Positions 5,163-53,510 of a DNA stretch of 64,000 nucleotides are shown piece by piece (position 1 is the first letter of the stretch; each line of letters starts with the position of its first letter). The notes beneath the pieces are model-generated. The model ran no database searches. It was not told the DNA's origin and saw only the letters and a program-made list of their open reading frames with translations. Source of the DNA: Aphanomyces cochlioides (taxonomy: Eukaryota > Oomycota > Saprolegniomycetes > Saprolegniales > Verrucalvaceae); NCBI GenBank assembly GCA_019828595.1, contig JAHQRK010000002.1:248001-312000 (forward strand). The letters run 5' to 3'. A program made the translations under genes and the position numbers.

Positions 5163-5965
5163 ATGGCAGCATCGTTGACGACTTGTTTTCCGTCGCACGC
5201 TGATACTTTCCGCATGACTTTAGTTCCTTCAAATGACAAACTTACCATTCGCCTCCAGTCCATGCGAACACTTCAAATTTGGTAAGGAAGCCCGCTACAA
5301 CTTTCATTTTATTAAGTGAATACTGGGAAGGCGACATCATGGAGCTCAAACCTCGGGAGCAAGTCTCTCCGCCTTTGGCATTGCCAGAGTTTACGAATCT
5401 CGTAGCCGCTGCCATGATTCACCAGGTTCCTGAAGCTCAATCCTTGGTGCAATGGGATCTAAAACTAGGTCCCCATGGCAGCCTCCACCTTCTTGTGGCT
5501 ATAATCCGCTCTGCGGGAGAGCGAGTTGGAGGATATGGATTTCGTTTGAATGCATGCAAACTCATTGAACAACCGACTTTGACAGCAGCAAGCGATGCTG
5601 TGCAGCGTCAAAAAATCGACAAGATGAATGGTGAGATCAAAACATTGAGCGATGGTATTTTCCACCTTAGAGCGCCTCACACACTTGTCACACTGACTGC
5701 TAAGCCAAAGAAGAATAGCCGAGATGCAGATAAGAAGTATAGATTTTGGGAACACGACGAAGAATCGCTGAAGGGAGCAGTGGGGTTGACGCCTCTGAGA
5801 GGGCAAAGTCAGTCCCGAGAGCTAGAGAGTATTTAGTTTGCGGTGTCAATAATTATTGCACAGACATGACATTATTTGGCAGTGATGATAAGCTCGCGCA
5901 AACGCAGGAATTAGACAAGCGGTGTGGGTTTTGCGACGATTGTCCTGCAAAAGCAGACTCCAGAT
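5163..5965 (+). pseudogene. Array family copy 1 (head-coil-jelly-roll protein), frameshifted
   Basis: Exon 1 (5163-5281) encodes the head motif FPSHADTFRMTL and ends at the conserved intron site; the intron is 5282-5316. Exon 2 from 5317 gives an open frame to 5836 with the second half of the head (VQWDLKLGPHGSLHLLVA, then GYGFRL) and a short coiled coil (KIDKMNGEIKTLSDG). The C-terminal jelly-roll domain then continues in another frame (REYLVCGVNNYCTDMTLFG, about 5823-5900) and fades out. A frame break near 5780-5820 therefore separates coil and C-terminal domain. The codon spanning the splice site would be Cys, where intact copies have Trp. Function unknown. Confidence 0.7.
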
Positions 5966-6149
5966 TGATTCTTTATATCAAACGATTAACGAAATTTGTT
6001 CTTCTAAGTAATTTGTTATCGTTCAGACAGTTGGTTCATCGCAATGAAGCGACAAGAACTCAGTTTATTAACTGTAGGAAAGGTATCATTCTTCATCCTC
6101 GCATCCTGGTATCAAGAAGAAATGGTATCGGCTTGTGCATACCAAGTGG

Positions 6150-6580
6150 TGGAGCCTCCAAGTGAGATTGCTGCAAAAAGACTTAGTGACAAGATCAAAC
6201 TGAGTAGTCAATTTTTGAACTCGAAGCCATCTCAAATCCTCGCATCACTTCAGGCCAAACCAAAGTGATACGACTGGGACGAGGCTATATGCTGGCTGCC
6301 CGAGACGAATGTGGACTCCCGATATGTCACCGTGGATGCCACTGAAACACGCCTGATCATTATGAAAAGCGGGGTCTATGTACTTCGCGGTTGCGGGCTT
6401 GCAGAGAGCTATTTAGTGATGTATATTGGTGACAAGGAGCACGCGCGTACCGAGTCAAGCGGGGCCAAGCAATATTTAGCTTGTGTTGTGCGCATTGTCG
6501 ATGTTGGCGCGATCAAATTTCGAAATCCCATCGCGAATCTGGTTCGTTCATTTGAACTTTCAATTGAAGAAATGGAATAG
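6150..6580 (+). pseudogene. Array family copy 2, 5' truncated, one in-frame stop
   Basis: Only the second half is recognisable. A coiled-coil stretch (PPSEIAAKRLSDKIKL) is followed by an in-frame TGA at 6266-6268, then in the same frame the C-terminal jelly-roll: KSGVYVLRGCGLAESYLVM, through to RSFELSIEEME and TAG at 6578-6580. No head exon is found upstream. The bases before it (5900-6130) resemble the spacer at 8740-8880 and the segment joined to it across element D (11498 onwards), which shows that gene plus spacer duplicated as a unit. It is most similar to copy 7 (19158-19743), which has the same C-terminal ending. Confidence 0.7.
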
Positions 6581-6928
6581 CAACACTAATGACGTTAAAA
6601 TATGCACTGTACGTTAGCTGATCTCCATTTCCTGGCTCTTCCAACCAAAACCATGACCATTTCGCTGATTCATTTCAATACAAACGCAGATTGTTTGAAA
6701 TCGACCGATTAGCAAAGGAACCTTGTGCAGCCAAACAAATGGCTTTATGGGGCTTTCACGTGTATTTTTACGTTGAAGCAAGCTGCAATCTGAAAGCTAA
6801 CAGCACGCAGACGATGACAATTCGTGTGTTCGAACTCAAACTTGAAATATTCACGTGAGCTTTATTTCCACGAGTTTTAACGGTATGAAAGAGAGTCTCT
6901 CGTTTTCGGAATTGAGTTTGATTCTCCC

Positions 6929-7467
6929 ATGGCAGCATCGTCGCTTTCCATCTCACGCTGATACTTTCCACTTGACTTTCGTCCCATCGAATGAGAAACT
7001 TACTATTTGCCTTGAATCCACTTGAACACGTCAAAATGGTAATGAAAAACATGAAAACTTCCATTTTAAGTGAATGCAGGAAGTCCACATTTTGGAGCTC
7101 AAGCGTGAAGGTCAAGGCTTGGTGTAATGCAGTTCTAGCTCTACGTGATGGATTGTCCTTTTGCCATTATAGCAGCTATGAACGAATGAGTGGGAAGACG
7201 GAATCTATGGCTTTTGATGTGATTGCAAGGGTTGGTGTCGCTGCAAAAGAAAATGTGCTTTTGATAGCTGGCGAGTATCGCATCGAAGGAATCGGCTACG
7301 ACTGTGGAAATATGATGCTATTCAAGGGCACTGACGACCTCGCTTTGAACGACGAGCTCAAGGCATTCGAAAGGACAATTACAATAACCCCTGCGGCTGT
7401 CTTGTGTGTTCTCCCTTTGACGATTGAACAATGGCCTAGCGATATGGAAGATCATACAATCGGTTGA
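6929..7467 (+). pseudogene. Array family copy 3, degenerate
   Basis: The head exon begins with the same ATGGCAGCATCG as copy 1, but has lost bases, so FPSHADTFHLTF is out of frame with that ATG. A TGA follows before the splice site. After the intron, a frame open to 7467 carries a scrambled middle part and a recognisable C-terminal domain (LLIAGEYRIEGIGYDCGNMML). Its closest relative is copy 5 at 11562-12060, and the spacers downstream of the two are also alike. Confidence 0.65.
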
Positions 7468-7662
7468 ATGCATTAGATTACTCTATGATTTCAACACACA
7501 GCCGTGAAATTCTCGACGTTCCTGGTTGTTCGTTTGCAGCTCATGACATAAAACGTCAAAAGAATGGATGGTTGTAGATCTCTCATCTATGCGCTAATAA
7601 CTGTGAGATGTCAACTGCCTTTCTTGGCAATTCTCCATTCTGTAATTTGTAAGCCGAAGAAG

Positions 7663-8505
7663 ATGACAACGTCCCAAGGCGATTTGATTGTTCAGTTCCC
7701 TTCGCATGCTGATACATTTCGAGTAAAGACGACATTGACTCGGATGGCAGACAAACTGACAATCCAGCTTCAGTCGATGCGAACTCAGCAGCTCTGGTAC
7801 ATCCATCCCAACGAATGGTCTATCTAAATCTAAGTAGGGAATGTCAAGCAGGGTTGAAGGAACGAAAAACTACTGGGTGCCTGTAGATTTTGAATGCACA
7901 TTACTGTCTGCGATGAGTTGGCCAAGTGCAGTTGATCGAAACTTTGCGCAATTGGACATCAAGATGGATTTCCAAGGCAACCTGCATTTGCTCGTGGCGA
8001 CAACACCATTGAGTGAGGACAAAATCGACGGACATACATTCAAATTCACTGAAAAGTCGTCTTGTGGTAGTTCACAGCGTCAATCGATCAAATTGGTCAT
8101 GGACACATTGCGGGCTGAGATCAAAGAGCAGAGTAACGAAAGAAAGCGTCTCGCTTACTTATAACACTGACCGCTATGCGACAGCAGTACGGTCAAGATG
8201 CGCCTCTGCTTTGGCACGAGGAGGACACTGCTCAAAGCAACTGTTTGTGTGTGGCTGGGGCTGAAATTGTGCTTTTGAAAGCCGGGGTGTATCTTGCGCG
8301 TGGTCGCGGCATTGCCTTCGATCGATTGGCATTGTTTCTAGGCGATGATGAAATCGCGCGAAGTCTACCCAACGGAGCTATGGAGCATTTTGCGTGCATT
8401 TTCACACTAAAGCAAGTTGGGATTCTAAGAGTTAAACCCACAAGGAGTACGGCTGGCGTCCGCTCCTTTGAGCTCACGCTTCAAGAACTGGAAAGAAGCA
8501 TGTAG
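7663..8505 (+). pseudogene. Array family copy 4, nearly complete, frame breaks
   Basis: Exon 1 (7663-7796) encodes MTTSQGDLIVQFPSHADTFR and ends at the conserved Trp. With the standard acceptor at 7837 the next exon is out of frame with the rest; a later AG at 7847-7848 would restore it. The remaining head (DFECTLLSAMSW, then LDIKMDFQGNLHLLVA) and coil run to about 8160. The C-terminal domain (EIVLLKAGVYLARGRG to RSFELTLQELERSM) lies in another frame from 8176 to 8505. It is therefore one or two single-base changes from an intact gene; whether these are mutations or sequence errors cannot be told here. The sister copy is copy 6. Confidence 0.7.
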
Positions 8506-9940: not shown

Positions 9941-9981
9941 ATTAGACTATATTGAGTAAAGCTTAGTCTAAGTCAATGAAT

Positions 9982-18140: not shown

Positions 18141-18996
18141 ATGAGTGCATCCCAAGGCGATTTGATCGTTCAGTTCCCTTCGCATACTGATACATTTCGA
18201 GTGAAGACGAAATTGACGCCAAAGGGTGAAAAACTGACAATCCAGCTTCAGTCGATTCGGACTCAACAGCTCTGGTACATCCCAACGAATGGTCTATCTG
18301 AATCTACGTAGGGAATGTGAAGTGACTGAACTAAATGCACGAGAAAAAATTTGATTGCCAACAACACTTGTGGATTTTGAATGTGCATTGCTGTCTGCGA
18401 TGGGTTGGCCAAGTGAAAATGCTCGGAATTTTGTGAAATTGGACATCAAGATGGACTTCCAAGGCAACTTGCATTTGTTCGTGGCGACATCGCCAGCAAC
18501 CGAGAACAAAGTCGACAGATATGCCTTCATACTCACTGAAAAACCGACTTTGAAAGTTGGTGATGTACAGTGTCAAATGATCAACGAGATCAAAGATTCA
18601 TTGCATGCTGAAATCAATGCATTGAGAGATGGAATTCGCGAACCAAGCGCGTCTCGCTTTTTTGTAAAACTGCCTGCTCAGCCAAAGAGCAACGGACAAA
18701 GTCGATCTCTGGTTTGGCTAAAGGAAGCGATTGCTCCAAACAACTATTTGTGTGTGGCTGAAATTGTCCTTTTGAAAGCCGGGATGTATCTTGCGCGTGT
18801 TCGCGGCAGTGCCTCTGGTCAAAGATTTATTTTGCTTCTAGGTGGTAGTGAAATCGCACGAAGTCAATCCAACAATGGACCAATGGAGAATTTTGCGTGC
18901 ATTTTCACGCTGAAGAAAGTTGGAATTCTACAAGTTCAGGCCGAGTGGGAGTTTAACAATGTCTCCTTCAATCTCACACTGGAAGAATTGGAATAA
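18141..18996 (+). pseudogene. Array family copy 6, complete apart from one TGA
   Basis: Exon 1 18141-18274 (MSASQGDLIVQFPSHTDTFR, ending at the conserved Trp), a 37-base intron 18275-18311, exon 2 18312-18996, all in one frame. The only break is a TGA at 18352-18354, 13 codons into exon 2. After it come the second half of the head (DFECALLSAMGW, FVKLDIKMDFQGNLHLFVA), the coil (MINEIKDSLHAEINALRDG) and an entire jelly-roll (EIVLLKAGMYLARVRG to VSFNLTLEELE). It could be a freshly dead gene, or could start internally. This is the best template for the domain layout among the array copies. Confidence 0.75.
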
Positions 18997-20030: not shown

Positions 20031-20853
20031 ATGGCAGCGCAAGTTCATACCAGTTTAGCCGTGAGATTTCCGTCCAACTCGGATATATTTCGATTAAGTT
20101 TGACGCCGACGAGCGATGTGCTGACCATTCAACTTCAATCCATGCTCACGCTCAAGATTTGGTATGAAAGATTGTGCTCATAGTGTTTTCAAGCACTCTT
20201 AGGGAATGCAAGGTCTCAGATATGAATCCACGAAAGGGTTCATGCTCGGCGATGCCTTTCACTGAATTTGCATCGATCGTCACCGCTGCAATGACTCTAA
20301 AGCCTTCTGCAGAGGAACATTCAGTGCAGTGGGATCTTCACAAGGATACCAAAGGCTCTCTACATTTGCTGGTGGCCATAGAACGCTCAATCGACAGACA
20401 AGTTGACGGATTTTCGTTTGAGCTCATGGAGAAGCGCATGAAGAAAGCTGTCTGCGGTGAAATATGGAAATCTTGAAATCCCGTCTTCCCCGATTAGAGC
20501 CGTCCTGTTTGAAATTATCTTTTCAAGCTATCAGTCGCCATTACCTCAGCGGTGAAATGTTGATTTGGGAAAAAGAGGAACAGTCTCACGACGGGGGTTA
20601 TGCGATCAGTGACTCTGGGTGTGAAATCGCATTACTGAAAGCTGGCGAGTACCTGATTTGTGGCCGTGGCAACGATTGTGCTCACATGACATTGTATTGT
20701 GGCGGTGACGAGATCGCGAAGACGGAATTGCGAGGATCAACAAAGCGTTTCGGAAAGGTCATTACGATTCAAGGCATTGCCGTGCTGAGTCTTGTCGTTC
20801 AGACGAAAACCAATGTTCGATCCTTTCAGTTGACAATTGATGAATTGAACTAA
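20031..20853 (+). pseudogene. Array family copy 8, nearly complete, one frame break
   Basis: Exon 1 20031-20161 (MAAQVHTSLAVRFPSNSDIF, ending at Trp), intron 20162-20202, exon 2 from 20203 starting ECKVSDMNPRKG. The head completes with VQWDLHKDTKGSLHLLVA and GFSFELMEK. A single frame change near 20460 separates this from the coil (MEILKSRLPRLE) and the jelly-roll (EIALLKAGEYLICGRGNDC to RSFQLTIDELN, stop at 20851-20853). The splice-site codon is Trp followed by ECKVSD, as in the intact copies 11 and 12, which fixes the gene model for the family. Confidence 0.72.
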
Positions 20854-21330: not shown

Positions 21331-22200
21331 ATGTCGGAGAGCGCATCCACGGCGTCGAACCTCTCACCTCGCATCAAGCCCTTCGAGGTGAATTGCGTTT
21401 ACTTTCCATCCCAGCACGAAGTATACCCGTCAAGGGGACTCCATCGACAGATGGAGTGTGTCTCTGGATACAGTCAATGCAATCAGGATTGGAATGGTAC
21501 ATTTATCGAAAACAAGTGCCAGTCTAACCGAAGAGTGCGTCTCAAGGAATGCAAAGTTGGCGATTTATCTGCACATGCTGTCGATGGAGCAAATGGAGCA
21601 TGCCCTCTCAGTGTGTGGTTACTGCTAAGTGTACGCATCGGCATTGATATGATTGTGATTGATCAATTGTAGATGGCATTGGAAAACAAATCTCCATGCG
21701 CTCTTGTGGATTTAATCCACGACAAGAAGGGCCAACCGACCTTGCTGTTGTCAATTCAGACTGCGGATGGTGCTGTGAATAGCTACATTTTTGCATGGTG
21801 TCAGTAGCTAGAGAACTCAACTCCAACTTGGTCTCAATGATGAAGAACCTTGTGCAAAGTGTCGGCAATGTTGGTGGTGAACGCCACGAAATGAGACTTG
21901 TGCCGTTGGAAGTCCTGAAATCGTCGTACAGAGTGAAGTGGACAGTCGTAGCTGGGACTGTCTGAACATCCATTCATCCACTGCAATTCCTATTGCACGG
22001 CTATCTGTTTTTTGAAACCTGGATGGTACCATGTCTCGATCGAAGGCAGAGGCGACTTTCAACTTGAGCTATGCGTGAACGACAAAGAAATTGCAAAAAG
22101 CAAAACCTTCCAAGGAAAGCTGACATTGGCCGCGAGTTTGGAGCTACAGTATACAACGTCATCAAGAATCTCGGTGATTACTCGTAAATGGCAATGGTAG
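21331..22200 (+). pseudogene. Array family copy 9, diverged and broken
   Basis: From ATG 21331, the head fragment IKPFEVNCVYFPSQHEVY leads to a Trp site and to ECKVGDLSAHAVDGANGAC, which matches the start of exon 2 in other copies. A possible second intron ends near 21672; then LVDLIHDKKGQPTLLLSIQ (second half of the head) and a coil (ELNSNLVSMMKNLVQSVGN). The C-terminal domain KPGWYHVSIEGRGDFQLELC runs to TAG at 22198-22200. Frames change between these parts and a TGA stands at about 21961. It is more diverged from copies 1-8 than they are from each other and closer in style to copies 11 and 12. Confidence 0.6.
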
Positions 22201-22465: not shown

Positions 22466-23374
22466 ATGGCGTCCTTTGAAACACGTCGGATGGTGCAATT
22501 TCCATCGCACTCTAATACGTTTCGTATTGTTGTGACTTCCGGGCGACAACAGCAGTCGAACACGCGAGATGGAGAGAATGGCACTTGATTAGATCGCTGT
22601 GAATTCCAAACTAAGGCTAGAAACATATCTGCCCTACAACGACTCAGGACAACCAGTCCAATCGACGTACTATCATGATAAAACTGCCGCCTAGTCACTG
22701 ACCTCGTTTACTGGTTCCAGCTGTACACACAGGCTAGGCCGAGAAGATGACACATAACAAAAGGATCGGAGCATGATGTAGCGCCCGACACAACACGTAT
22801 GACGCTGATGGCAACAGCCGACAAACTCAAGATTCGCCTCGAGTAGGTGTATTCACAACGAACGAGGTAAGCTCGATCAACTAGCCAAGTCTCCCATCCT
22901 ACATGTCAAGGGACTGCGCAGTGAAAGTGCTTGAAACACGTGAGAAAAGCAAAACGAATGGCAGTTTAGTGCCTCCTTGTGCCGTCTCAAAGCACTCCTG
23001 GAGATCAAGTGGAAGGGTTTAAATTTGAATTGAATGACTTCCAGAGTCAACCAAGTCAATTCGAAGAGCTTCCGAGCAATACTGCGCTGAAGGCGCTTCA
23101 TGCAGAGCTTGAAGCATTAGGCGATTCCATGACGAAACCAACGCCTACCCGTTTGTGCATGACGTTTTATGCTATTGTAAAAACTTGGCTTCAATATGAC
23201 GAAGCGCTGTGTTGGATGCCTGTGTTTTCTCCTTTTCATCGACATCTTTGCATGGGAACCTCTGGGAAAGAAATTGTCATCTTACAAGCTGGACTTTACC
23301 TTGTCCGAGGCTGCGGTCAAGTGAGCAAAGCTGCATTGCTCCTTTCTACTCTCTCAAGAAGTCGCTTAGTCTAA
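22466..23374 (+). pseudogene. Array family copies 10/10b, overlapping remnants
   Basis: Two head remnants are visible: MASFETRRMVQFPSHSNTFR from ATG 22466, which dies quickly, and DTTRMTLMATADKLKIRLE with a TAG at about 22790-22845. From 22979 an open frame to 23374 continues with GDQVEGFKFELNDF, a coil (ALKALHAELEALGDSM) and the start of a jelly-roll (EIVILQAGLYLVRGCGQ), which breaks off. This is probably one head from one copy and the body of a second after a deletion. The array ends here; element C begins 210 bases further on. Confidence 0.58.
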
Positions 23375-23584
23375 AGCACAGGAATTCATCATTTGACTTG
23401 CATTTTAACAACTCAACGCGTTACAATCGTTTTTCTCTGTTGAAAGGGAGCAAAAAGGAGAGATTCAGGGCAATGCAGACATCAGCTTATCGGTTGCAGT
23501 CTCGAAGTTAGCAGTATACTAAGGGAGAGTTAGAACAGCCTTCTACAAACTTGTCACTGTAAAGTCAGTTGAATCAAATATATA

Positions 23585-24342
23585 TGTGGGATGGACGGAT
23601 CAGTGAAGTCCGAGCTTCTCGCCGCAAGAAAAAGGGAGGGGGGTGGAAGGTTAGAGGTCACCTGGGGCTTTTAGGTGAGCCAGACGCGATCGAAGGAAAT
23701 GGAAAGGCACGACTGTGGGTTGAAAGTCCGCAGTAGTTGACCGCTGCTGGGGGGATGGACGGAGGGGAGGACCGGAAAGGGGGTTGATTGCTCGGTTGCC
23801 CACGAGCTACGCCTAGCGTTGACTGGCGTTGGTGAGGGCGATTGACGGTGCGGGTTTTCGACAGACCCACGGAACTCCTGCAAACTTCTTGGCGCTTAAA
23901 CTCTCTCGACGGGACACCACAAACTTAGAGGTTCATTCAACGCCAGCCAAAAAGAGCTCTGTCTAACTATTGCCTCTGTTTCCTAAGCTACTCCTACTTC
24001 GCACGCACGCTCTGTAATTGTCTTCGTCTCGCTCCACGATTGTCTCCGACCTTTACGCACTCACTCAATTGGCCATAAGTCTTGGCAGCACGCTCGCAGC
24101 GGGCCACCACACTGACTGCAAGCCTGGTTGGCTGCCCTCCATTGGTGGCCACTGTTCCGGCTCGTTGGGCTCTGCTTTTCCACTCGTACTGCTTGCTCCT
24201 TGGTCATAATCCCTTGACAATCCGGCACTGTAATCCACTCGTAACCCGTCGCGATTGGTGACCTTCCAGCCAATAGTTCATCGCTCTTTGTGTCAACCTA
24301 TGCGTTGGATCGGTTTCGCGAGTGGCGACCCGCTTTGCCACA
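23585..24342 (-). repeat. 3' LTR of element C
   Basis: A 758-bp LTR, identical to 39325-40082 except at about three positions (for example 23595 region A/T and 24328-24330 ACC versus GCT). A polypurine-like stretch lies directly inside it at 24343-24353 on the minus strand (AGGGGTGGTTT). Confidence 0.93.
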
Positions 24343-26067: not shown

Positions 26068-28470
26068 TCACATGGCTCTCGCTGAGCCAACTTGGTCACT
26101 CCGAATAGGAGTTTGAAGGTCGACTCCATGACCTTCAACGTGAGCTCCAGATGGAGCGCGAGAAGCGTTGCGTGTTGCAAAAGCACTTTGATCAGACGGC
26201 GCAGTCATGCGCGCCACACATGGCGACCGCCGAAGGCTTGGAGGACTGGGCTCGCGCGACGGATGTTTAGACCCAGGATTTTCACAAGAAGTGCTCATAG
26301 CTTGAGAAACTGGTCGCGCGTCTCCGTGAGGAGAAAGATCGCATGGACGCGCACCTTCGAGCGCTCCATCAGAGGGTCCACCAGGATTCAAAGTATTTCG
26401 AGGAGCTGGAGGTGGGAAGCCCTCAGCCTGAGCTATGTGTCTCTTGAGCTTGCCCGTGTAGATGACGGGATGGATGTCCCAGTCATCGGGCAGTTCGACC
26501 TCGTAGTCGACTGGACTAATAACTTTTCGAATAGGGAATGGCCCCAACCAAGGGCAGCGAAGCTTCGAAGGGCCGCGAGGTCCTTTGACGACCGACCGAT
26601 GCACGTAGACTAGGTCGCTAACCGAATACACATTTGTATTTCCTCGGTTGTGTTTGTTGGCCTGACGGGCCTGTTTCGCTTGAGCACTGGCGATATTCTC
26701 GCGTAGGCGCAGTAACAATGATTCACGTGACGACGCGAAATGTTCCACAAAAGCGGCTGTCCGCCGCGGAACGTCATCGGAGATTCCTCCCACACTTAAA
26801 ACAGGACGGTCCACGTCCGTGGGAAGCCGCGGGTGCTTCAAATGCACCGCGTAGAAGGGCGTAAAGCCCATTGACGCATGAACAGACGTGTTGTAAGCAA
26901 AACACGCTGTTGGCAATATGGAACTCCATGTTTTCGGCCTAGACAAGGCATAGCTTCGAAGGATGTCTTCGAGAACGCGATTCGCGCGTTCGGTCTGACC
27001 ATCAGACTCTGGATGGTCCGAGCTGGACATGTTTAACGTCGTCCCGCAGAGCGCGAGCAGCTCTCGCCAAAAATGGGACGTAAACCGAGGGTCTCGATCC
27101 GAGACGATACTGGACGGGAGTCCAAAATGACAATAGACGTTGTCAAAGAAAAGGCGAGCTGACTGCTCCGCCGTAATGGATGCCTTAACAGGCAGCGCGA
27201 TCAGGTACTTGGATGCGCGATCGACAAGGGTGAAGATACCCCTATTGCCCGACTTGTCACTGGGCAAGCCAAAAATGAAGTCCATGCTGACGGACTCCCA
27301 CAGTTCCAGTGGGACGTCGAGGCTCTGTAGCGGAGCCTGTGAGTGTGGGGCGGCCTTGATGGCCTGACATACGCCACACGATGCGACAAAACGTGCCACC
27401 GCCTTATACAGGCGAGGCCACCAAAAGGAACGGGCGACGGACAGATACGTCTTCTCGCGGCCAAAATGGCCGCCGCTCGGTGTATCGTGTAATTCACGGA
27501 TGATCTCCGCACGGAGAGTCGGGTCGCACGGCACAGCCACTCGTGGGGCGTCCCCCGGAGTGACTGAATACCACAACAAATCGTCGTGGAAAGTGAAACG
27601 TCCGATCTGGACTACCTTGGTGGAGATTGACTTGCCAGCGGTTATGGCATCAATCGTCCGGCGAAGTGCGGGATCGAGGCTATATGATCCTCGAATGCGA
27701 TCAAACAAGTCCGAACGGACTTCGGATATGGCAGACAGACAGGGAGGTTCCTCCTCAGCTGGACGGCGCGACAGCGCGTCTGCAATGACGTTGGTACGAC
27801 CTGGTTTGTACTCAACAGTCATGTTGTATTCCGCGAAAAACGCGAGCCACCTGGCCATCCGGTCAGAGATGTGCGGCGAGTTCACAGCAGTCCGCAAGGA
27901 CGCGTGATCCGTGTATACCGTAAACGGCTTCGAGCCGAGAAGGTAGATGTGGAATTTGACCAAGGCGTATTTCATCGCCAGTAATTCGAGGTCATGGACC
28001 GGATAGTTACGCTCAGCAGCGCGCAGCTGCCGTGACTGATAGGAGACGGGTCGGTCACGACCCTCGTCATCCTTTTGCATGAGGCAGCAACCTATTGCTC
28101 GCACTGATGCATCACAGACGACCGAGAATGGTCGATTGAAGTCAGGCAACGCCAGGATCGGCGCTTGCGTGAGGCTGGCCTTGATGCCGTCAAGAGCCTC
28201 TTGACATTCTTGTGTCCAGTCCCACTGGACATCCTTCATGAGTAGCCGCGTCAGCGGCGTCGCGATGTCAGCAAAGTTCTTCGAAAACTTGTGCAGGTAG
28301 GTCGCAAGACCAAGCCAGCTGCGGAGTTCTGTCGCCGTGGCCGGGACAGGCCAAGTTGTAATCGTGGTGACTGTGGCCGGGTCTGGCCGACATCCATTGA
28401 TACCAACGTACTCCCCGAGTACGGGTATATCGTCAACGCCGAACATACACTTCTGTAAGTTGGCGTACAA
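26068..28470 (-). pseudogene. Pol RT thumb, RNase H and integrase segment of element B
   Basis: An 800-codon frame nearly identical to 1337-3736 of element A, with only a handful of substitutions up to the GPF/Y module. It holds RNase H (VVCDAS, TDHASL), the HHCC finger and the integrase D,D,E residues (SMDFIFGLP, SDRDPRF, SDGQTERANR). After KLKRHI the two copies lose protein similarity, which marks where Pol really ends. It follows, in frame, a TAG shared with A at about 28489-28491. Confidence 0.88.
26084..26440 (+). pseudogene. Relic of the antisense coiled-coil ORF in element B
   Basis: Plus strand, antisense to pol. One frame gives residues alignable with the antisense protein of element A (EFEGRLHDLQRELQMEREKR, MATAEGLEDWARA, EKLVARLREEKDRMDAHLRA). 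Three TAG codons interrupt it. Its N-terminal two thirds are absent because of the deletion next to the 3' LTR. Protein similarity in this frame is clearly better than in the sense frame, which suggests that this was the coding strand. Confidence 0.55.
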
Positions 28471-28488
28471 TCCTGCATCTCGCAGCGT

Positions 28489-29469: not shown

Positions 29470-29470
29470 T

Positions 29471-30236
29471 CACGTCTCCGTGCACGCGGTCCGTCGGTGC
29501 ACTCACGAAGGAGACTTTAAGCCCGGTCCGTTGGGCACTACTCTTGTACACAGGCAACCCAGTCCGTCGGGTGTTTGCCCAAGTGTTGTTGAAGGCCTGA
29601 CGGCCGATATCTTCCTTGGAAGACATAGGACCGCCCTGGCGTGTCGACTTTCCTGTAGCCGGGAGCTGACGCAGCGTAGCTAACTGCTCATCGCCAGCTG
29701 GCGAGGGGATGGGCTCATTACTCTCCATGCCCATATGGCTTTTGAGAAAGTCGTGGCCGACCTCATGGATGGTCTTGGCCCGCCAGTTTATGCAGGGCTA
29801 GTGTTTCTCCAACCAGCCCATGCCTAGGATGAGGTCCCAGCGCTCATCTAGGTCTATAACGAAGTAGTCTTCAAGACTACTGAACGTGCCAACCTGTGTT
29901 AACAGGCGCACTAATCTCTTGGGTGCGGTCACTACCGACCCATCACCCAACTTGACGCGCACAGTCTCAGTCAGAGACGTGCCGCTGTCGACCTCGGCAT
30001 AGAGGCTCGATTCTCTTCGAGCGTCTGTCGACGGGCAAAATTCTTCGACGCTTCACAGTCGACTAAGACTCGGAGCTTTCGGTTGAAGCCCTCCACGGGC
30101 ATCTCTACATGCAGCATCGTAGTATGCTGTCCCGGTTGACACAGTAATGTGTCAGAGGCTAGGTTCTGACGAACAGGCGGTATGCCGGAACGCTCTTCAT
30201 CAGAGCCTAGAGTTGTCCCAGTAGGTCGCCCCGCGC
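29471..30236 (-). pseudogene. Protease region of element B pol, degenerate
   Basis: Minus strand after gag. The flap and active-site region reads VLVDCEASKNFA, where a retropepsin normally has D-T/S/C-G-A; the Gly is replaced by Glu, so the protease should be dead. Further on are FVIDLDERWDLILGMGWLEK and a TAG (29798-29800), which is also present at the start of element A (8-10). Reading frame changes occur near 29970 and again before the RT segment. Confidence 0.65.
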
Positions 30237-39322: not shown

Positions 39323-39324
39323 CT

Positions 39325-40082
39325 TGTGGGATGGTCGGATCAGTGAAGTCCGAGCTTCTCGCCGCAAGAAAAAGGGAGGGGGGTGGAAGGTTAGAGGTCA
39401 CCTGGGGCTTTTAGGTGAGCCAGACGCGATCGAAGGAAATGGAAAGGCACGACTGTGGGTTGAAAGTCCGCAGTAGTTGACCGCTGCTGGGGGGATGGAC
39501 GGAGGGGAGGACCGGAAAGGGGGTTGATTGCTCGGTTGCCCACGAGCTACGCCTAGCGTTGACTGGCGTTGGTGAGGGCGATTGACGGTGCGGGTTTTCG
39601 ACAGACCCACGGAACTCCTGCAAACTTCTTGGCGCTTAAACTCTCTCGACGGGACACCACAAACTTAGAGGTTCATTCAACGCCAGCCAAAAAGAGCTCT
39701 GTCTAACTATTGCCTCTGTTTCCTAAGCTACTCCTACTTCGCACGCACGCTCTGTAATTGTCTTCGTCTCGCTCCACGATTGTCTCCGACCTTTACGCAC
39801 TCACTCAATTGGCCATAAGTCTTGGCAGCACGCTCGCAGCGGGCCACCACACTGACTGCAAGCCTGGTTGGCTGCCCTCCATTGGTGGCCACTGTTCCGG
39901 CTCGTTGGGCTCTGCTTTTCCACTCGTACTGCTTGCTCCTTGGTCATAATCCCTTGACAATCCGGCACTGTAATCCACTCGTAACCCGTCGCGATTGGTG
40001 ACCTTCCAGCCAATAGTTCATCGCTCTTTGTGTCAACCTATGCGTTGGATCGGTTTCGCGAGTGGCGGCTCGCTTTGCCACA
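39325..40082 (-). repeat. 5' LTR of element C
   Basis: A 758-bp direct repeat of 23585-24342 with TGTGG...CCACA ends. Any promoter for the minus-strand gag-pol lies here; no particular box is claimed. Confidence 0.93.
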
Positions 40083-40720: not shown

Positions 40721-43700
40721 ATGAGTAAGACGGAGACCACGCCATTGGAGACCGAGGAGTTCGGGACCCACATAAAAGACAATCCTACATTTTTTGGAGA
40801 TGAAGACGACGATGATCTTCAAGAAAGCAACAATAGCGACATCATGGATTTCAAGAAATCACTGATTGAATTGTTCCAAGAGAGAAAGTTTTACGCCATC
40901 ACGTCAAGATTGCAAGCTGGTATCCTCACGGAAGAGGATTATTCGAGCGATGTATGCTCTTCTGTCTCATGCTTCGACTTATGGGATCTGTAGCATGGAT
41001 ATTCGATCGTATCGTACGCTGCGCAGTTGGGAAAAGAGGACATTCTACGTTTGATTCTCAAGCGTGTCAACTGCAAGAAAATTCATGACGTGAGGATTTG
41101 ATCTCAGGTTTGCATTGCTTGACTGTTGAAATGTCTTTAGTTCACGTACGACCCGATATTTCAAGCCACAAAGGAGAACCAGGTTGGCACTGTCAAGATT
41201 CTGCTTGAAAACGTTAAAGACATTGATCTACAGTCAACGTTGAATGTATTCGCCACCCCTTGTGATCGTATGAGCTAATATGCCTTGTTAGTCTGAAGGG
41301 ATGATGGTTTTGCACGCTGCTGCTGCCGACGGATTCAATGAAATTCTGGAAATACTCATTCAAGCTGGCGCACCTGTGGATGGAGTCGATGTTTGTGGTA
41401 GGACACCACTGCATTATGCAGCGTTGGTGGGCCACCGTCGAGCTGCTGAAATTTTGCTGGAAGCTGGGGCAAATATTGATAAAAAAGTCTGCGTCGAGGG
41501 GGAAGGACTTGACGAGGTAGAAGCAGATATCACAGTAAAGCTCATGTACTTACTTCTAAATAGATTGACGGTTGGACACCGATCCACCTTGCCGTAGCTT
41601 TCGAGCTCGGTGATGTCGAAAGCAGGCGTGAAATGGTGAATTTATTCTTGGGTGCCAATGCGTCATTGGATATTTGCACCAAAGACGATCAATCAGTCCT
41701 TGACGTGGCGAAATCTGAAGAATTAGCTGAATTGGTGTCTGCAGAACTTGCTTTTCGAACCGACTATCCTATCCACCGCCTTGCTCGCGACGGAAAGCGA
41801 GCAGAAATTGAAGCTTGGATTGAAGAGATGAATGGACAACATGGAGATGAATCCTCCACTCAACTTGAATGGACAGGTCAATACGAACAAGCTGGCGAGT
41901 GGAAGCACACAAGCTTCAAGACAAAAGTTATACGAGTCAATGGCGCCTACCGATTCATTGGAAAAGACAAGGATGCTGTAGGTGGCTTTTCGATCAAGGG
42001 AACATGGTCGGGCAATCGCATCGAGCTTGAAAAAGAATTTGAATGGGGTTACTGTGAGAACTATGAGGGCGATTTCGATGAAAAGACTAGCGAGTGGAAA
42101 GGTCTTTGGTCTGTCAATGGTATGGGCGGCGAATTCAGGTTTGATGTTCCTGTTTTTAATTGCCCCAACTGTGGTCACAAAATTTCTGCCGTTGAATATG
42201 AGGAATGCTTGGAGTGCGCTGGCTCACACGCAGGCATAAATGTCACCGAAGAAGAATTGGACGCCATGCGAGCTGCATTAGTCGAAAGAGAAAGCGGCGT
42301 GACCAGTACTCTCATTGAGAAAGACACCAAAGGTTTCACGGTTTTTATGCACGCTGCCATGGGATGCCACTTGGCAGTTTTGAAAGTCTTGATGCCGTTT
42401 TTGAGTGAAAGCGACTTGGCTGAAAAGGACAAGGTATCAGGGTCGAACTTACATAAATGTTATTCGCAATATCGTAGGAAGGACGTACAACTCTTGGTAT
42501 TGCCTTGGGGATGCAATTGGTCTGTGCCAAGAATGCTGAACGCCGCTCCAATGATGATTTGATTGAAATGATTAAGCTTCTCTCTGCTCAGTCAAACATG
42601 GAAGTCACGGCGTCGGATATTGTACGTGAAGCAATACTTCCTGGCATCTCACAAATTTTTAAATAGCCACGACCTACCCGGATGGTGTACGTTCCTATTA
42701 GGGATGACGACGAAAAAGTGTGCTGTGGTGATTGCCAGATGACTGAGAAGAACAAAGGCATTCAATTGATCAAGATGGCCGAGGAGAAGGAATGGGAAAA
42801 ACTCAAGACCTTGCTTACCCAACAGCTCAGCGCTGATATTCTAAACAGCTCCGATAAATCTGGAAGCACAGTACTGCACCTTGTATGTGAATATGGCAAT
42901 GCAGAGGTGCTTGAACTCCTCCTAAAGCAAGACCAAATAAATCGTTACCCAATGAACAGAGTACGAATTTTCACATGTTGGGATAATTTTATTTGAAACA
43001 GCTCGGCGAATATCCACTGCTTGTTGCAAAGAACCATAAGCGCGTGAAGTGTGTCCGTATTTTGCTGAAAGATGGCGCGCCTCCTCTGAAGCTTCGTGAC
43101 GAAGATTTCGATAAGGTGAAAAAATAATGCACACCATCAAGCTGAGTTGAATGTTCTAGGAGATTGGGTTTGACCCTGTGAATCTAATCAATACGGCATA
43201 CCAAGCAGACAGACTGATTTTGGAGCGATTTCGCTTGCAAAAAAAATATCCACTGTACTATGAGGCAAATCTCGAAAACATTCAACAAGCGGAGAGCTGT
43301 ATTCAGGTGCTGAGATCAAAATTGCTTACCTTATGCTTAAACTGTCGTTCCAGGCGAATCAAACGCCTTTACATGCAGCAGTCCTTGGTAAGCAATCGAT
43401 CAAAGTGGTCAAATACTTGGTCGACTGCAATATTGATGTTGACAGTCAAGACATTGTACGACTATCTTCTTGCATCACCTTCCTGAAAAACTGTAGCATG
43501 GACGCACTGCCTTGATGTTTGCAGGTAAAAATGGGGATGCTGACATTGTAAGGCTATTGCTTCAACAAGAGCCGTTGGTGGATATAATTGACAAGGTACA
43601 GTGGACTCGATTTTGCGTCCAACTTGATTCATGGGAGAAAAAATAGGATTATGAGAGTGCTCTGTTTTATGCTGCAAAAGCCGGTCAAGTGGGAGTTGTG

Positions 43701-46144
43701 AACTTGTTGCTGAAAGCTCTGGCGGACCTTGATCTGACAAATATAGTACGCATTTCTGAATACGTAAGATGTGATCATGTCTCTAGGATGGAAAAACACT
43801 TTTGGACTGTGTCGATGAGGAAATTCAATCTTTGGGTGCTTGTGAAATGAGCGTCAGAGACAACCAAATCGCTGACTTTCGAAATAACTTGAAGGTAATT
43901 GCTAAATTGATCAAAGACGAGGAAAAATTACATGAAAACTCGCTTGACTACCGCGAAAGATTGGCAAAAAGCTTTGTTGGTATGGAGGCTCTGGTTGCGT
44001 TTGAACAAAATGGGTTCAGCAAAGCAGTCAACTGCAGTCCAAAGCTAGCTCGAAGCTTTTTAGACGATTGCGTCGACATGCAGCGCCACGACGTGGGCTT
44101 TGATTTAAAATCCTTGGTGTCTGTCTATGGCAAGTTCTGCAAAAACAGTGTTTTGTATGGAATTCTCAACTTGAAAGAGTCAGCTGGAAGCGAAATACAA
44201 ACTGAAGCGAAACAAGAATGTCTTGACCATGCACTGATGCATCGTGTCCTGGCGATAAAGTGGGAGTTGTTTGCTCAGCGAAAATATTTGGAACAACTCT
44301 TTATGAACATTTTGCTCTTGGTCCTGATAACTGTTTCTTCAATCATCCATGGTGACGAGCTTGCAAAGAAGACGCCATCGGTTTTCGAATTGACCACAAT
44401 ACTTGGCACGTTCACATTTTTCTTTGCAATCGTTGGTTTCATCACCACTCAGTTCTTACATCCACGTGCACTTTGGCGTCTGGCACGCTTCTTTTACGAA
44501 GGCAGCTTTAAATTTGATCCTTCCTATGACATTCCCGGATTGAAGCTGCAAAAGCAACTTGCCAAACGACGACTTGCCTTGATTGCGCTATTTTTCACGG
44601 TGCTACTTACTACCGTCGCTTTATTTTTGATAAGGCTGTTCAAATTGGACAGCAGTTACCACGACTTTATCAGCATTGTCTTGGGTGTTACTGCGTTGTA
44701 TTTTTTGTGGCAAGAGATGAAAGAAATGACTGACGAGGATTACTTCAACTCCATATTCAACATTGGTCAGCTTTTCATTTACCTGACCATATTCTTTGTC
44801 GTCGTTCCGATCAATTTGGGAATTTACAGCGCCCCTGAAGAAATTAGAAGTGGCATCGGTGCTTTTGTCACAATAACACTGTGGATTTTGTCAGTGCAAT
44901 ATCTCGAAGTTCTTCCCTCGGTCAGCTTCATGTTGCCCATGATGGCCAATATGATGAATGACGTCAAGAATTTCTTTATCTTCTTTGGCATCTTCCAAAT
45001 AGGTTTGACTGTCTCATTCTACCAGCTCTTTCGTAAGTCTGGAGATGGCTCTTTTATCTCCCTTCCCCAATCGTTCATTACCACCTACTTTGTCGCTTTT
45101 GGTAATCTTCCAACTGACTCCCTTGGCTCGCTTGTACCTGAAGGAGGGACCATGAACCCTTACCAAGAATTTTTGTATACTGTGGCAGTGATCATGATGA
45201 TGTTTCAAGCAGCAGTCGTTGTCATTATGCTCTTGAACGTGCTAATGGCTATGATGAACAATGCTGTGAGTGGTGGTTTAGAGTCGGCAAAGACTGAAGC
45301 TTTGACAAAATACGCGCAGTGTATTCTACGTCTGGAATTGGCACTTGATATGGACGAGAATGAAGTTTACGATTCCATTTATTTTGTCAAACCAGGTGAT
45401 GATCCAACGGCACCTCAGGGTGTATTGAATCCTTTGTTTCACGGGCGGTGTTCCAAGGCTGAGGTCAACATGAACGAGGAACAGGAAAAGAAAATTCAAG
45501 AGCACATAGATCGCAAAGAAGCGTGGGAAGAACTCATGGGCAAACTTGAAAAACAAACCAATTTTGAGCTCACGAAATTCGAGGATAAACTTCTTCACAT
45601 CAAGCATTTTACTGACATGGACGTGGACCAAATACTTGCCCAAGAGTTGACTCAAATTAGGAATATTCGTGACCAACTCGGAGCCATTTTTGAGCGCTCT
45701 CGAAAAGCCAAGGGACAAGACCGCGATCATGTCCTGGATCGATTGCAAAATTCGTTGAACAAGTTGTTTAACAAGCTCCAACAAGACGTGCTTCGAGTTT
45801 GGATTGCCAATAAGGACGAAGCACACAACAAATGTGTCCTTCTCTACCACATGGCTTTTCAACGTGACATGGAAACTGAGACAAATGCACTCAAAAACAA
45901 AGTAAAGACCGAGCTGGAAGAATCACTTGAGCTAGCTGGCATGATAAATTTGGTTGAGGAGCCCAAGTTGAGTGAATTGAAGCAATCCATGGATGACTCG
46001 CACGCAGCTATGTCTGAAAGCTCCCATCAAGTGGTTGCAATGGTACAAGAAGTCCAACTGGATGTTCAGACGAAATTTGACGAGTTGATGGAAATAATCC
46101 GAGAGCTCAAAGCGGACAGGAAGAAGGAGGGACAAGAAGACTAG
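40721..46144 (+). CDS. Ankyrin-repeat TRP-like cation channel, 13 exons
   Basis: Exons: 40721-40951, 40994-41089, 41141-41245, 41292-41516, 41564-42433, 42478-42621, 42667-42960, 43002-43116, 43160-43306, 43354-43455, 43497-43595, 43647-43745, 43787-46144; all introns are 41-50 bases, GT-AG and in phase 0. About 1627 residues. Ankyrin repeats (GRTPLHYAALVGHRRAAEIL) surround a beta-rich insert and a zinc ribbon (CPNCGHKI...CLECAG). The last exon has six or more membrane segments, a pore-like loop (SFITTYFVAFGNLP), the S6-like LLNVLMAMMNNAV and a long coiled-coil tail. This fits a TRP-class channel. Exon 8 has one extra base: a C in the run at 43080-43082 breaks LLKDGAP/PLKLRDEDF. An in-frame Met also exists at 40697. 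Confidence 0.85.
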
Positions 46145-46518: not shown

Positions 46519-47515
46519 ATGGACGAACATATCAAAGCAGAATCACCGGCGACAAGAGCTAATTCCATGGAGCTTGTGAACCTACGTTTTCGATCGCATC
46601 CTGACACCTTCAGATTGGCCATTGACGCTTGCGAAGAAAGCACTTTGCCCATGACAATCACGCTGGAATCCACAAGAACCAAAGGGAAATGGTAAGGCAT
46701 TCCACAATCAACAGTTGATGACACTTGTGCTCATAGGGAATGCCTCGTGTCTGACTTGAAACACCATGCCTCTAAAGATTCGCATTCACAGGTTGTTGCG
46801 TCGAGTGTCGTGTCGGCTCTTCAGGTAAAGCAAAACGTTGTCAACTGAGCCTGACGCACGAGGTTAGAAAGCACTTCTCGCTTTGCAGGACGAGAAGAGT
46901 ACCTGGAACGAATCCAAAGTGGACCTGAAGCACTGTCATTCCGGCTCGATGCATCTCATGCTCGTCATGGTGATTCCGTCAGGGGCTGCAATTGGATTTA
47001 CATTTGACATGGTGCCTTTCGCTATGTCCACGGATGATGTGTTGGAGATAAAGATGCGTGATCTTATGAAGGATATTGATCGCGCTCGAAAAATGCCAGA
47101 ACCAGTCCTGATGCTGTTGTCGGAGGGTACAACAAAGCTGTTGGGAGACAAGTCATACTCGTGTTGGACAATTCATCCCAGCATCGAGCCACACTATTTC
47201 GCACTCTCAGAAGACGCAACGGAGGTTGTCTTTTTGAAAAAATGCGGATATCATGTTCAGATTCGCGGCTTGAGCTCTTGCCATGAATCTTCGACAGCTT
47301 TGGGAGCAGGTAGCAGCCTGATACCATCTACGTTTGAACTCTACCTCGATCATTTCCAATTTCCTGTCGCGACGTCTCAAGGTTACGGTAACTTTTGTCA
47401 ACTGTCATACGTTTTCAGCGTGGAGAAGACTACCGTGCTTTCTGTCGTCATCCATGGGTACCATCGAGATGCAACCAACGTTGTCTTCTTGGTTGAGCAA
47501 GTCCCATACTCCTAA
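46519..47515 (+). CDS. Array family copy 11, intact head-coil-jelly-roll protein
   Basis: Three exons, 46519-46691, 46737-46824 and 46889-47515, with clean GT-AG introns in phases 2 and 0; 295 residues. Exon 1 is the head (VNLRFRSHPDTFRLAIDAC) and ends at the invariant Trp. Exon 2 is 88 bases, starts ECLVSDL and ends in a helix. Exon 3 completes the head (VDLKHCHSGSMHLMLVM, IGFTFDMVPF) and has a short coil (LEIKMRDLMKDIDRARKM). It ends in a beta-rich domain (EVVFLKKCGYHVQIRGLSSC). Exon sizes and phases match copy 12, 5 kb away. No signal peptide or membrane segment is seen, so it is probably intracellular. Function unknown. Confidence 0.8.
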
Positions 47516-48102
47516 TCTTTCGACCATATTTTCTGTTAACTTGACATAATTTCACGTTGATCTTACAAGAAGTTCTGAAGACTGCCGTGAAGATTTTGGC
47601 TTGTAACTTACAATAAGACAGCATTATCTTGAGAAATTTTACACGCTTGAATTGTCCTTTTCTGGATTCTTGTTGGTATTAATATCATAGATGCTCATAA
47701 AGTCATACCTGCATTGCAACAGGACTCTTTCCAAAACAGAGTATGAATGCTCGTATACTAGGAAACAATGTAATTTCGGCTCGGTATTTATTAACCCAAT
47801 GTCTGCTGGTTGATTGTCGTTGCGCTGACAAAGAGGATGTCTCGATGTGGGTGTTTATGCACAATATCATCGTTCAGATTCATTCCCCCTTGAACAACCT
47901 TTGTGGACAAGAGAGCGGCATGCTTGGAGCTCTGAATGAGGAAGATTTGAAAGGATCTTTTGCATTGATCTGAGTAAATATCCCATGGCCGGAATTGCTC
48001 GCCAACTTCAAGGACCTACAACACGCATCTCACACTATTTTCCAATGTTGGTACAGCAAAACCTCTGAAACTTTGTCGAACAATTGCCATTTTGCAATAT
48101 CC
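47516..48102. other. Intergenic region
   Basis: A 76-codon open frame at 47743-47973 has no recognisable features and is left uncalled. The rest shows no gene. Confidence 0.4.
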
Positions 48103-49503
48103 ATGTTGATCCTGCGGCTGTGTCGGCGGTCGACACCATGCATGATCCGGGCATTCTCGACAAAAGAACGCCGAGAAGAAGAGAGATTCTTCTCTCTTCT
48201 TGTTGTCAACCGACCTGGTACACTGGCGCAGATTGCATCGGCCTTTGCTGCTTTGGGCTCGAACATAGGGTCGCTATCTGTGCAGCAGACTGTCGTTCCA
48301 GAATTGAGTCGCATGACCATTGCCGCGATTGTAAGTGAGCAGACAACGTCGAAGATCTTGAGACGACTGAGACGGATGGTTTGCGTCACATTCTTCCACG
48401 TCACGACAATGCAGCAATGTCTTCTGGACGAAGCCTTTGTCCTTCAGTCTCAACTTCTTCTGCGGCTTGAGTACTCGCCTGACAAGAAATCTGACGTTGA
48501 AACAATTCTCGCCAAGTACAATGGAAAGTTTATCGAAGAGAATGAGCCAGCCTTGATTGCCCCGAGTGACGATGACGATGTTCAACCAACGGCCACAGTC
48601 GTCCATTTTGTGAATGCTCCTCACTTGCTCAACACTCTGGTCCATCGATTGACACTGCAAGGTGTACGAATTGCAGAGTGCCAGTCTGCTGGCCCTTGTT
48701 TCCTGGATATATACAGCCAGTCAACATTGCAGCCAAAGCCCCTTCAAACAACCTTACCGACGACAGCACGGCCAACGTATTCAATAGCTCGACGCGATCT
48801 TCACGATCGTATAGCCGCCCAGCTCTTCTTTCCAAGTCACGTGCCATCGCATCTTGTTCGGCCAAAATTTATCTTGCTCTTGGGGATACCTGGTTCAGGA
48901 AAGACGTCCATTTTGAGTGAATTGGATCAAACTGAACGCATTGTCCTAAACGATTTCGTCAACTTTGACGTGGACGATATAATTGCATTGCTGCCTGAAT
49001 TCTACAAGGCCATGCTTAACGTGGGCTTTGGAAACTTGCAAGAAGGTGACGAAGGTGACGCCATGGATCCTCACGTTCGATACAACCAATGCCAAGACGA
49101 AGCCAAGTATATTTTGGACACGAATCTTCAACAAGCGATGCTCGAACACCGCAATATTATTCTTCATGGAAGTGGCCGATCCTTGGTAAAATATCAAGCG
49201 CTTATAAGAAGTTTGGATCGACGATATGAAGTCCAAGTCATGTGCGTCGATATTCCAATCGAGCTTGCCATGGAACGAGTTGAAAATCGAAGCAAAGGAT
49301 ACGGTCGCAATGTTCCTAAAGAGTTTGTTGAAGACGCAGCCATGAGGATTCGAGAGACTTTTCCTACCTTGGCACGGGAACTTCCTTATGCTCATGTTTT
49401 TGACAGCACAACATGGCCACCTGTATTGATTTGGAGCAAGCAGCAGAATCGTGTCGTTGTGGAGGAGCCAAAACATCCTGTCCAGCAAAAATACGGCCTG
49501 TAA
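48103..49503 (+). CDS. Acetolactate synthase regulatory subunit fused to a zeta-type P-loop kinase domain
   Basis: One uninterrupted frame, 466 residues from ATG 48103. The first 25 residues (MLILRLCRRSTPCMIRAFST) look like a mitochondrial targeting peptide. Next is an ACT domain (LLVVNRPGTLAQIASAFAAL, then NIGSLSVQQT) as in IlvH/ILV6, then the second regulatory domain (DVETILAKYNGKFIEENE, LTLQGVRIAECQSAG). From about residue 255 a P-loop domain begins: Walker A LLLGIPGSGKTS, acidic motif NFDVDDIIALLPEF and C-terminal GRNVPKEFVEDAAMRIRETF, as in zeta-toxin/UDP-sugar-kinase-like folds. The first half should bind valine and regulate branched-chain synthesis. What the kinase half does is unknown. 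No partner antitoxin gene is nearby and toxicity should not be assumed. Confidence 0.82.
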   Translation: MLILRLCRRSTPCMIRAFSTKERREEERFFSLLVVNRPGTLAQIASAFAALGSNIGSLSVQQTVVPELSRMTIAAIVSEQTTSKILRRLRRMVCVTFFHVTTMQQCLLDEAFVLQSQLLLRLEYSPDKKSDVETILAKYNGKFIEENEPALIAPSDDDDVQPTATVVHFVNAPHLLNTLVHRLTLQGVRIAECQSAGPCFLDIYSQSTLQPKPLQTTLPTTARPTYSIARRDLHDRIAAQLFFPSHVPSHLVRPKFILLLGIPGSGKTSILSELDQTERIVLNDFVNFDVDDIIALLPEFYKAMLNVGFGNLQEGDEGDAMDPHVRYNQCQDEAKYILDTNLQQAMLEHRNIILHGSGRSLVKYQALIRSLDRRYEVQVMCVDIPIELAMERVENRSKGYGRNVPKEFVEDAAMRIRETFPTLARELPYAHVFDSTTWPPVLIWSKQQNRVVVEEPKHPVQQKYGL

Positions 49504-51726: not shown

Positions 51727-52274
51727 GATGCCTCTTGCGTAGTCAGTCGTCTTTTCAAGAATGAGTTTGGCGCGCAATTCAAGATCGAATCCGGATGAAC
51801 CGACCAATCAAAGACATTATCCGATTAATGATTCTATCAGACAAGAAGGGATCACCTTTGATGACGATGAATTGACGCACAGGTTTTCCCGAGTGAGGAG
51901 ACGGGGATCAAGCTTCAAGAGTCCAAGATATAAGATTATTAAGCAATTTAAATGATCCACCAAGCAATTGACCTTTTGCGAAGAAAGTTAGCTGGCAATG
52001 GCTTTGGGAAAGACCTTCTAGTTAATCTACTTCAAAAAGTACTTCGCTTGCTGGCCAAAATGATGCTTATAACTGTGCAGCTCAGATCGGACACAAAAAT
52101 GCAGACCTTTCGTCGCTAATCATGGCCATTAATTATTTACAAGAATGAAGAACGGATACAACACATTTTGATGATCGAACGATAATTGCTGACAGACAAA
52201 ATGCTACCGTTGGAAACTTCGTCCCAAGGAAATCTGCTACAACTGCCTTGTAAAGCCCCATTTTGCATTCAAGC
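51727..52274. promoter_or_regulatory. Divergent intergenic region between HORMA gene and copy 12
   Basis: The two flanking genes start away from each other, so both promoters should lie in these 548 bases. No specific motif is claimed, and no repeat or RNA gene is seen. Confidence 0.4.
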
Positions 52275-53510
52275 ATGGAGAGCCCACACGGTTCAGAAAA
52301 CGCGGAATCTCCATCGAATTCACCTAAAGCGGAAGTGGATGCCACACCTCCGGCTATGGAGGTGGCCTTGGAGTTGTCAAGTGTCAAGTTTGAGAGTTAT
52401 GAACCAGCTGATGTCTTCCGCGTCCAGCTTGGTACGACCGGAAACTCGCTTCCCATCTCAATCTGGATGGAAGCCAAACGCTCGAAGCTACAATGGTTGG
52501 TTTACATCCTCAACATGAAACCACTCAAAATCGTTCCATGCACCGTAGGAAATGTGACGTTCAAGACTTTGCAAACCATGCTCCAGCAGATGCTAAGTAT
52601 GTTCTTCCAGACGCAACGGTGCTGGCGGCATTACAGGTACCAAAATTCACGTATTCCATTCTGCAAACAACGATTCTAGGCTGCGTTGACGGCTAAAACA
52701 AAGCACAAACTTGATGGAGAAAATTCCAAGGACAAATCACTGCAAATTGACATGTTCAAGGAAGGATCCGAGCTGCGATTAAGCTTGGAAATCGAAGCGC
52801 TTTTTGGAATGCATGCCCGCTACGAGTTTACTCTCAAGCAAGTCGAAGTTCAACGAATCGACATCTTGGAAGCCAAGCTACGTGACTTGACGGAGCAGAT
52901 AGAAGTCCTGGCGAAAGAAAAGAACAACCAACTCGACCAAATTGAAGAAATCAAAGTCATGGCCATAGACAAGGCAAAGCTAAATGAGCTCAGTGAACAA
53001 GTCAAGCACCTTGTTGCCGAAAAGCCAAAGCTCGAGAATTTGACTAAAGTGGTTGAGGCATTGGTGTTGAGAAAGCCTCAGCTAGACACGATGGTGTGTA
53101 CTCGCTTCCTTTCTGAGATGACAACCACCGATGAAGAAGCGGTTGTATGGAAGAGCTCGATGTGGAACTGCTCTACGCCATTCGCCAACTATTTTATCGT
53201 GGCCAACGGTGGAAATTCCATCACAATTGTTAACAATGGGCTGTATCAAATCGACTGCTATGGAAAACCAAACGATGTCAAAGCTGTTATCATACTCCAC
53301 GTGAATGGCACCAAGACTGCGTCGTCGACAAGCGATGCCGGTGGCTCATTTGTCCAAATATCGCGAAAACTGCCGTTGGTTGCCAATTCAACTCTCCAGC
53401 TTCGCCTGAGCGCTCCAGATTGTAACCACACCGACTGCGGGAATCGAAAATGCCGACATGTCTTCTTGGCCGCTGAAACCGAGCTCTGGATCACATTCAT
53501 GATGCCTTAG
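52275..53510 (+). CDS. Array family copy 12, intact, long coiled coil and C1q-like domain
   Basis: Three exons, 52275-52495, 52549-52636 and 52680-53510; introns in phases 2 and 0 and an 88-base exon 2, exactly as in copy 11; 379 residues. An acidic Ser/Pro-rich start is followed by the head (VKFESYEPADVFRVQLG, ISIWMEAKRSKLQW), KCDVQDFANHAPADA, and strands SLQIDMFKEGSELRLSLEIE. A coiled coil of about 85 residues follows (RIDILEAKLRDLTEQIEVLA). The last 120 residues resemble a C1q/TNF jelly-roll: VNNGLYQIDCYGKPNDVKAV, VNGTKTASST and FVQISRKLPL. This is the clearest member of the family. Coil plus C1q-like end suggests a trimeric stalk; XRCC4-like heads usually dimerise. Confidence 0.8.

Follow-up and report, generated by a model that had tools for sequence, protein, structure and literature searches.

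Members of the XRCC4 superfamily, of which five are listed (SAS6, CCDC61, XRCC4, XLF and PAXX), are described as a head, a coiled coil and a low-complexity end, with roles at centrioles or in the repair of DNA (PMC7267773). The head is a seven-stranded barrel with a helix-turn-helix between strands 4 and 5, and members other than PAXX, which is excepted from filament forming, assemble via two interfaces: a coil dimer and a weak head pair, the latter made in SAS-6 and CCDC61 by a phenylalanine of the last hairpin (PMC7267773). Here we analyse a 64,000-base stretch (the window; C12:248001-312000) from the 76.2 Mb, 94-contig genome of Aphanomyces cochlioides, an oomycete that attacks sugar beet (PMC11653986). 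The window carries two intact genes, gene A (52275-53510) and gene B (46519-47515), of a family in which a predicted head of this class is followed by a coil and a C-terminal jelly-roll of the C1q/TNF type. On the predicted models, the presence of both folds is highly probable, and we found no description of a CCDC61/SAS-6/XRCC4-type head paired with a C1q/TNF-like tail.

Three homologue searches returned 20 proteins, all named from A. cochlioides or Aphanomyces euteiches, all labelled hypothetical, unnamed or uncharacterised, and none with a precomputed Pfam domain. Two A. euteiches proteins are the same products as those of genes A and B, to 96%: P0001 is 96% identical to the 379-residue product of gene A over its full length, and P0002 shares 289 of the 302 residues of the gene B product. 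The introns of gene A (53 and 43 bases) are both GT..AG, and for gene B the A. euteiches protein points to 46867 as the end of the second intron. The common layout described in the initial annotation is borne out, as are the strand-coil-strand order, the G-L-Y motif, the phase-2 intron that interrupts the Trp codon and the Cys-x-Val turn, which reads [EK]-C-x-V. In an alignment of 14 members (A1, whose rows include gene B and, for gene A, the A. euteiches twin), Trp74 is present in 14/14, Cys76 in 13/14 and Val78 in 13/14. Our gene finder demanded the split Trp, so this intron is built into most models and is independent evidence only in proteins annotated by others. From A1 we built three hidden Markov models (HMMs), for head exon 1, the rest of the head and the tail, and searched them against the six-frame window.

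In the predicted model of the gene A twin, strands at residues 29-38, 47-55, 58-67 and 73-78 are followed by helices at 81-84 and 95-110 and by strands at 122-128, 134-142 and 148-158. This order of four strands, a helix-turn-helix and three strands before the coil is that of the seven-stranded superfamily barrel; the model of a head-only relative gives the same order, and the predicted head matches solved XRCC4-superfamily structures over most of the domain. The coil is predicted directly after the head (helix 162-216 in the gene A twin, 137-154 in P0010). The proposed assignment of the head to the XRCC4/XLF/PAXX/SAS-6 class holds by predicted fold and structure comparison; its nearest relative is CCDC61/VFL3 (17% identity in aligned residues), not PAXX. 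XRCC4, XLF and PAXX have the head class and the head-coil order in common with the family (XLF, Foldseek E 1.2e-4), with structural scores below that of CCDC61; PAXX is named in none of the matches listed, some of which are unnamed chains of non-homologous end joining (NHEJ) complexes. We rejected the family as a CCDC61/VFL3 orthologue: the best CCDC61 match of the genome, at C4:2329050-2329375 (E 2.1e-9 and 1.6e-8), is a separate gene outside this family, and the TGNFK block, which the CCDC61 proteins of human, zebrafish and A. cochlioides have in common (invariant in A5), was not seen by eye in A1. Sequence likeness of the family head to SAS-6 was not found, and the genome has two separate SAS-6_N matches on C2.

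The C1q-like tail anticipated in the initial annotation corresponds to residues 240-379 of the gene A twin, which are predicted to form a ten-stranded jelly-roll matching solved C1q/TNF members. Sequence matches of the tail are weak: BclA and CD40L at E 0.03, and Pfam BclA_C at a best E of 0.0011 (2/18 members) and 0.007 in 1/14. A genome search with Pfam C1q gave no match, but neither did any control genome. TNF-type domains carry a Trp and a G-x-Y in their first half, and the tail shows such a W...G-L-Y pattern besides its C1q-like structure (W260 in 14/14, G290 and Y292 in 90% or more of the A1 members, aligned with the W..GLY of CD40L). The Cys/His loop within the gene A jelly-roll, present also in both C34 genes (L036), is perhaps metal-binding. 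It had been suggested that prediction should place an XRCC4-type fold in the first 150 residues and a jelly-roll in the last 120 of both intact products; for gene A this was found through its A. euteiches twin, while the A. euteiches twin of gene B figures only as a row in the alignments.

Several observations weigh against this reading. The head was not found by any sequence method: hhalign of the head with CCDC61 aligned Trp-containing stretches at P 0.048 (A1; probability 1.1%) and 0.15 (a second alignment, A3, of 18 sequences; 0.4%), and with SAS-6 gave no match (probability ~0.1%, P ~0.5). The test has little power, because a control alignment of CCDC61 with SAS-6, held to be paralogues (PMC7267773), fails equally (probability 0.1%, P 0.5, equally small alignments). 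One of five head-only models has a predicted local distance difference test score of 51.7, the coil helix of P0010 spans only ~18 residues, and the full-length model has a predicted template modelling score of 0.46, which leaves the head-tail arrangement undefined. A counterpart of the head-pairing Phe of SAS-6 and CCDC61, a residue altered in some PDB constructs, occupies the matching turn in 9/14 members, is one residue off in the gene A twin and is absent in gene B (by eye), so head pairing may be retained in some members only. The tail is missing in 6/23 modelled genes, and within the first 40 residues hydropathy rises to 2.0 (P0007) or to 1.5-1.7 (P0008, P0020 and L035).

In gene A, one open frame (exon 3) runs from the last three strands of the head through the coil to the end of the tail. 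Because gene B matches this layout by HMM and the A. euteiches proteins also have the head-coil-tail order, an assembly or annotation chimera is very unlikely, and the head-to-tail fusion first read from the letters is right as far as confident prediction shows. Our other gene models permitted introns in the first part only and thus support the fusion less strongly. On the models, we assign the head domain to the XRCC4 superfamily and the tail domain to the C1q/TNF superfamily, and the whole protein would be a new architecture; the XRCC4-superfamily assignment is confined to the head because a predicted jelly-roll replaces the low-complexity end. CCDC61/VFL3 has such a low-complexity end, whereas the Aphanomyces family has the predicted folded jelly-roll and many tandem copies. 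Compared with BclA, C1q-like proteins and TNF ligands, the jelly-roll here sits C-terminal to an XRCC4-class head, and a collagen stretch is absent from the members read. Caprin-2 is a precedent for a single protein whose N-terminal part is dimeric and whose C1q end is trimeric (PMC11480233); the N-terminal part in question, the helical HR1, has no relation to the Aphanomyces head.

Instead of the twelve copies counted initially, the window holds genes A and B, both intact, plus about eight copies between 5.1 and 23.4 kb that are partial or broken in frame (Table 1). The degraded copies, which are outside A1, match the HMMs down to E 1.8e-6 (head) and 1.5e-5 (tail), and a reversed-window control gave no match better than E 0.48; the strong matches of the intact genes (down to E 4.6e-33) arise by construction, as gene B and the gene A twin are in A1. 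Judged by similarity, the degraded set is a diverged subfamily, because the copy at 18355-18993 matches nearly only window sites (8 genome-wide matches at E <= 0.001: 7 in the window, itself included, and 1 at C12:200868). An open member with a related FPSH..FR start was modelled at C12:189.5-190.4 kb, its exact splicing being unsure. Across the window and 16 fetched stretches we counted approximately 62 HMM clusters, 30 of which are complete for head exon 1, rest of head and tail; of the 62, 60 fall within the first 0.7 Mb of C12 and 2 on C34. With the A1 HMMs, the set at C12:415-461 kb matched for head and coil, and a jelly-roll match was absent; on the head tree of 23 genes, tail loss or gain needs at least four changes. 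This is a real multigene family, with ratios of non-synonymous to synonymous substitution (dN/dS) below 0.5 between close paralogues (0.26-0.43 in the 8 pairs, out of 66 among 12 genes, that exceed 50% identity; NG86; dS 0.12-1.10).

Individual members vary at their ends. L029 (C12:174.9 kb) and L030 (C12:220.4 kb) have hydrophobic, possibly membrane, stretches after the coil (19-residue hydropathy means of 2.1 and 1.98); L029 retains the jelly-roll and L030 shows none. The C-terminal ends of L031 and L032 are basic and Arg-Ser-rich (by eye). Several family genes lie in an inverted duplication at C12 ~107.2-123.5 kb (L026, L027), where the gene models at 108.3 and 122.2 kb yield identical proteins; this is either a recent palindrome or an assembly effect.

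The best explanation, which we hold to be moderately probable, is that these genes encode a family of Aphanomyces assembly proteins, probably intracellular, with a branched scaffold; the scaffold mechanism itself, drawn by analogy, is more tentative and falls slightly short of an even prospect. C1q and TNF domains are trimers in known relatives, and by that analogy the jelly-roll tail would trimerise; the heads would pair weakly, as those of SAS-6 and CCDC61 do. Two-fold head contacts combined with three-fold tails would give a branched, multivalent scaffold that gathers partners, in contrast to the rings or linear filaments of known head-class members, and members without a tail or with hydrophobic segments might cap or anchor it. 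A doubtful extension is that the XRCC4-superfamily head, known from centrioles and DNA repair, has found a third use in Aphanomyces: with a C1q/TNF trimer attached, it would form three-armed nodes whose heads pair, yielding intracellular nets or cages. The head would then have multiplied in tandem, giving a fast-changing family whose ends are interchangeable (jelly-roll, hydrophobic, basic or Arg-Ser-rich) and which perhaps recognises or traps something intracellular. If true, the XRCC4 class would gain a new architecture, a large tandem family in which the end is folded and probably trimeric, and with it a natural test of how tail symmetry affects an assembly built by the head; a C1q/TNF-type domain would also be placed in an oomycete protein of intracellular appearance.

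The likeness of the head to the XRCC4 class could be convergence, an unrelated sandwich-plus-helix whose strands run in the same order, with no common ancestry or pairing behaviour; this would accord with the lack of significant similarity by HMM and hhalign and with a pairing Phe that is not kept in all members, and we consider it improbable. That the family descends from CCDC61/VFL3 and serves zoospores as an accessory of the basal body or flagellum is unlikely. The nearest head is that of CCDC61, which works at basal bodies (PMC7267773). The genome has its separate CCDC61-like gene and SAS-6_N matches as well, but a structural component of a conserved organelle would hardly be expected in dozens of diverging tandem copies. 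To our knowledge, no TNF-like domain has a role there. A scaffold for DNA end joining, akin to XRCC4, XLF and PAXX, is very improbable: XLF and XRCC4 are among the structure matches of the head, but they score ~4 to 5 Z units under CCDC61, and the copy number and TNF-like tail are unlike those of the repair factors known to us. Pfam XRCC4, XLF and PAXX find nothing in the genome, a weak point as the control genomes were likewise without matches.

Most known C1q and TNF domains are extracellular, and a secreted or surface recognition protein whose tail binds outside ligands would also suit the hydrophobic stretches of L029 and L030 and the moderately hydrophobic N-termini of some members. However, the twins of genes A and B have no signal-peptide-like start by crude hydropathy, and described head-class members act at centrosomes or in DNA repair (PMC7267773); we rate secretion as quite unlikely. 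That the family is a relic of decaying, functionless duplicates, as the many broken or partial window copies could suggest, is barely credible in view of the dN/dS values of the 8 computed pairs, the intact state and ~96% identity of genes A and B in a second species, and the 23 open gene models in the fetched stretches.

Table 1. Family genes, predicted domains and degraded copies in the window.
Feature	Position	Strand	Description
Degraded copy	5163..5836	+	Head exon 1 and later head/coil; frame lost ahead of tail
Tail remnant	6224..6577	+	By HMM and genome-wide similarity
Degraded copy	6933..7467	+	Head exon 1 by HMM; next open frame with tail-like end, by eye
Degraded copy	7663..8505	+	Middle and tail in separate frames
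Degraded copy	18141..18996	+	Tried splice has one in-frame stop; tail frame open
Degraded copy	20031..20853	+	Coil region carries frame breaks
Degraded copy	21700..22179	+	Middle match weak; tail match E 1.5e-5
Degraded copy	22493..23431	+	Head and tail matches both weak
Gene B exon 1	46519..46691	+	Head strands 1-4; ends within Trp58 codon
Gene B exon 2	46737..46824	+	Middle of three exons
Gene B exon 3	46868..47515	+	Last head strands, short coil, jelly-roll; tail HMM 47126-47506
Gene A exon 1	52275..52495	+	Start and head strands 1-4; ends within Trp74 codon, phase 2
Gene A head domain	52359..52844, introns included	+	Residues 29-158; CCDC61/SAS-6/XRCC4 fold, from predicted models of A. euteiches twin and head-only relative
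Gene A exon 2	52549..52636	+	Remainder of Trp74, head helix-turn-helix
Gene A exon 3	52680..53510	+	Last three head strands, coil, jelly-roll; single open frame, 276 codons
Gene A coil helix	52854..53018	+	Residues 162-216, predicted in twin
Gene A C1q/TNF-like jelly-roll	53088..53507	+	Residues 240-379; predicted structure and weak sequence matches
Gene A Cys/His loop	53421..53453	+	C-x-H-x2-C-x4-C inserted in jelly-roll; also in both C34 genes

Elsewhere in the window, two copies of a pol region, Ty3-like by eye, lie in opposite orientation at 1-3721 and 26086-29807 (97% identical). A 758-base direct repeat (23585-24342 and 39325-40082; 99.6% identity) encloses retroelement frames and likely represents the long terminal repeats of a young element. 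At 41292-46144 (+), ankyrin repeats precede a 785-residue frame with several hydrophobic stretches and, by eye, the look of a TRP-type channel; this 785-residue part has no Pfam match at E 0.001. The 509-residue open frame at 47974-49503 (+) combines an AHAS-small-subunit-like ACT domain (E 5.4e-10) with a Zeta-toxin-like kinase domain (E 3.4e-17), an unusual pairing. On the minus strand, 60654-61304 and 63033-63707 encode two proteins with WRKY19-type zinc fingers (PF24906; E 5.5e-21 and 4.5e-12).
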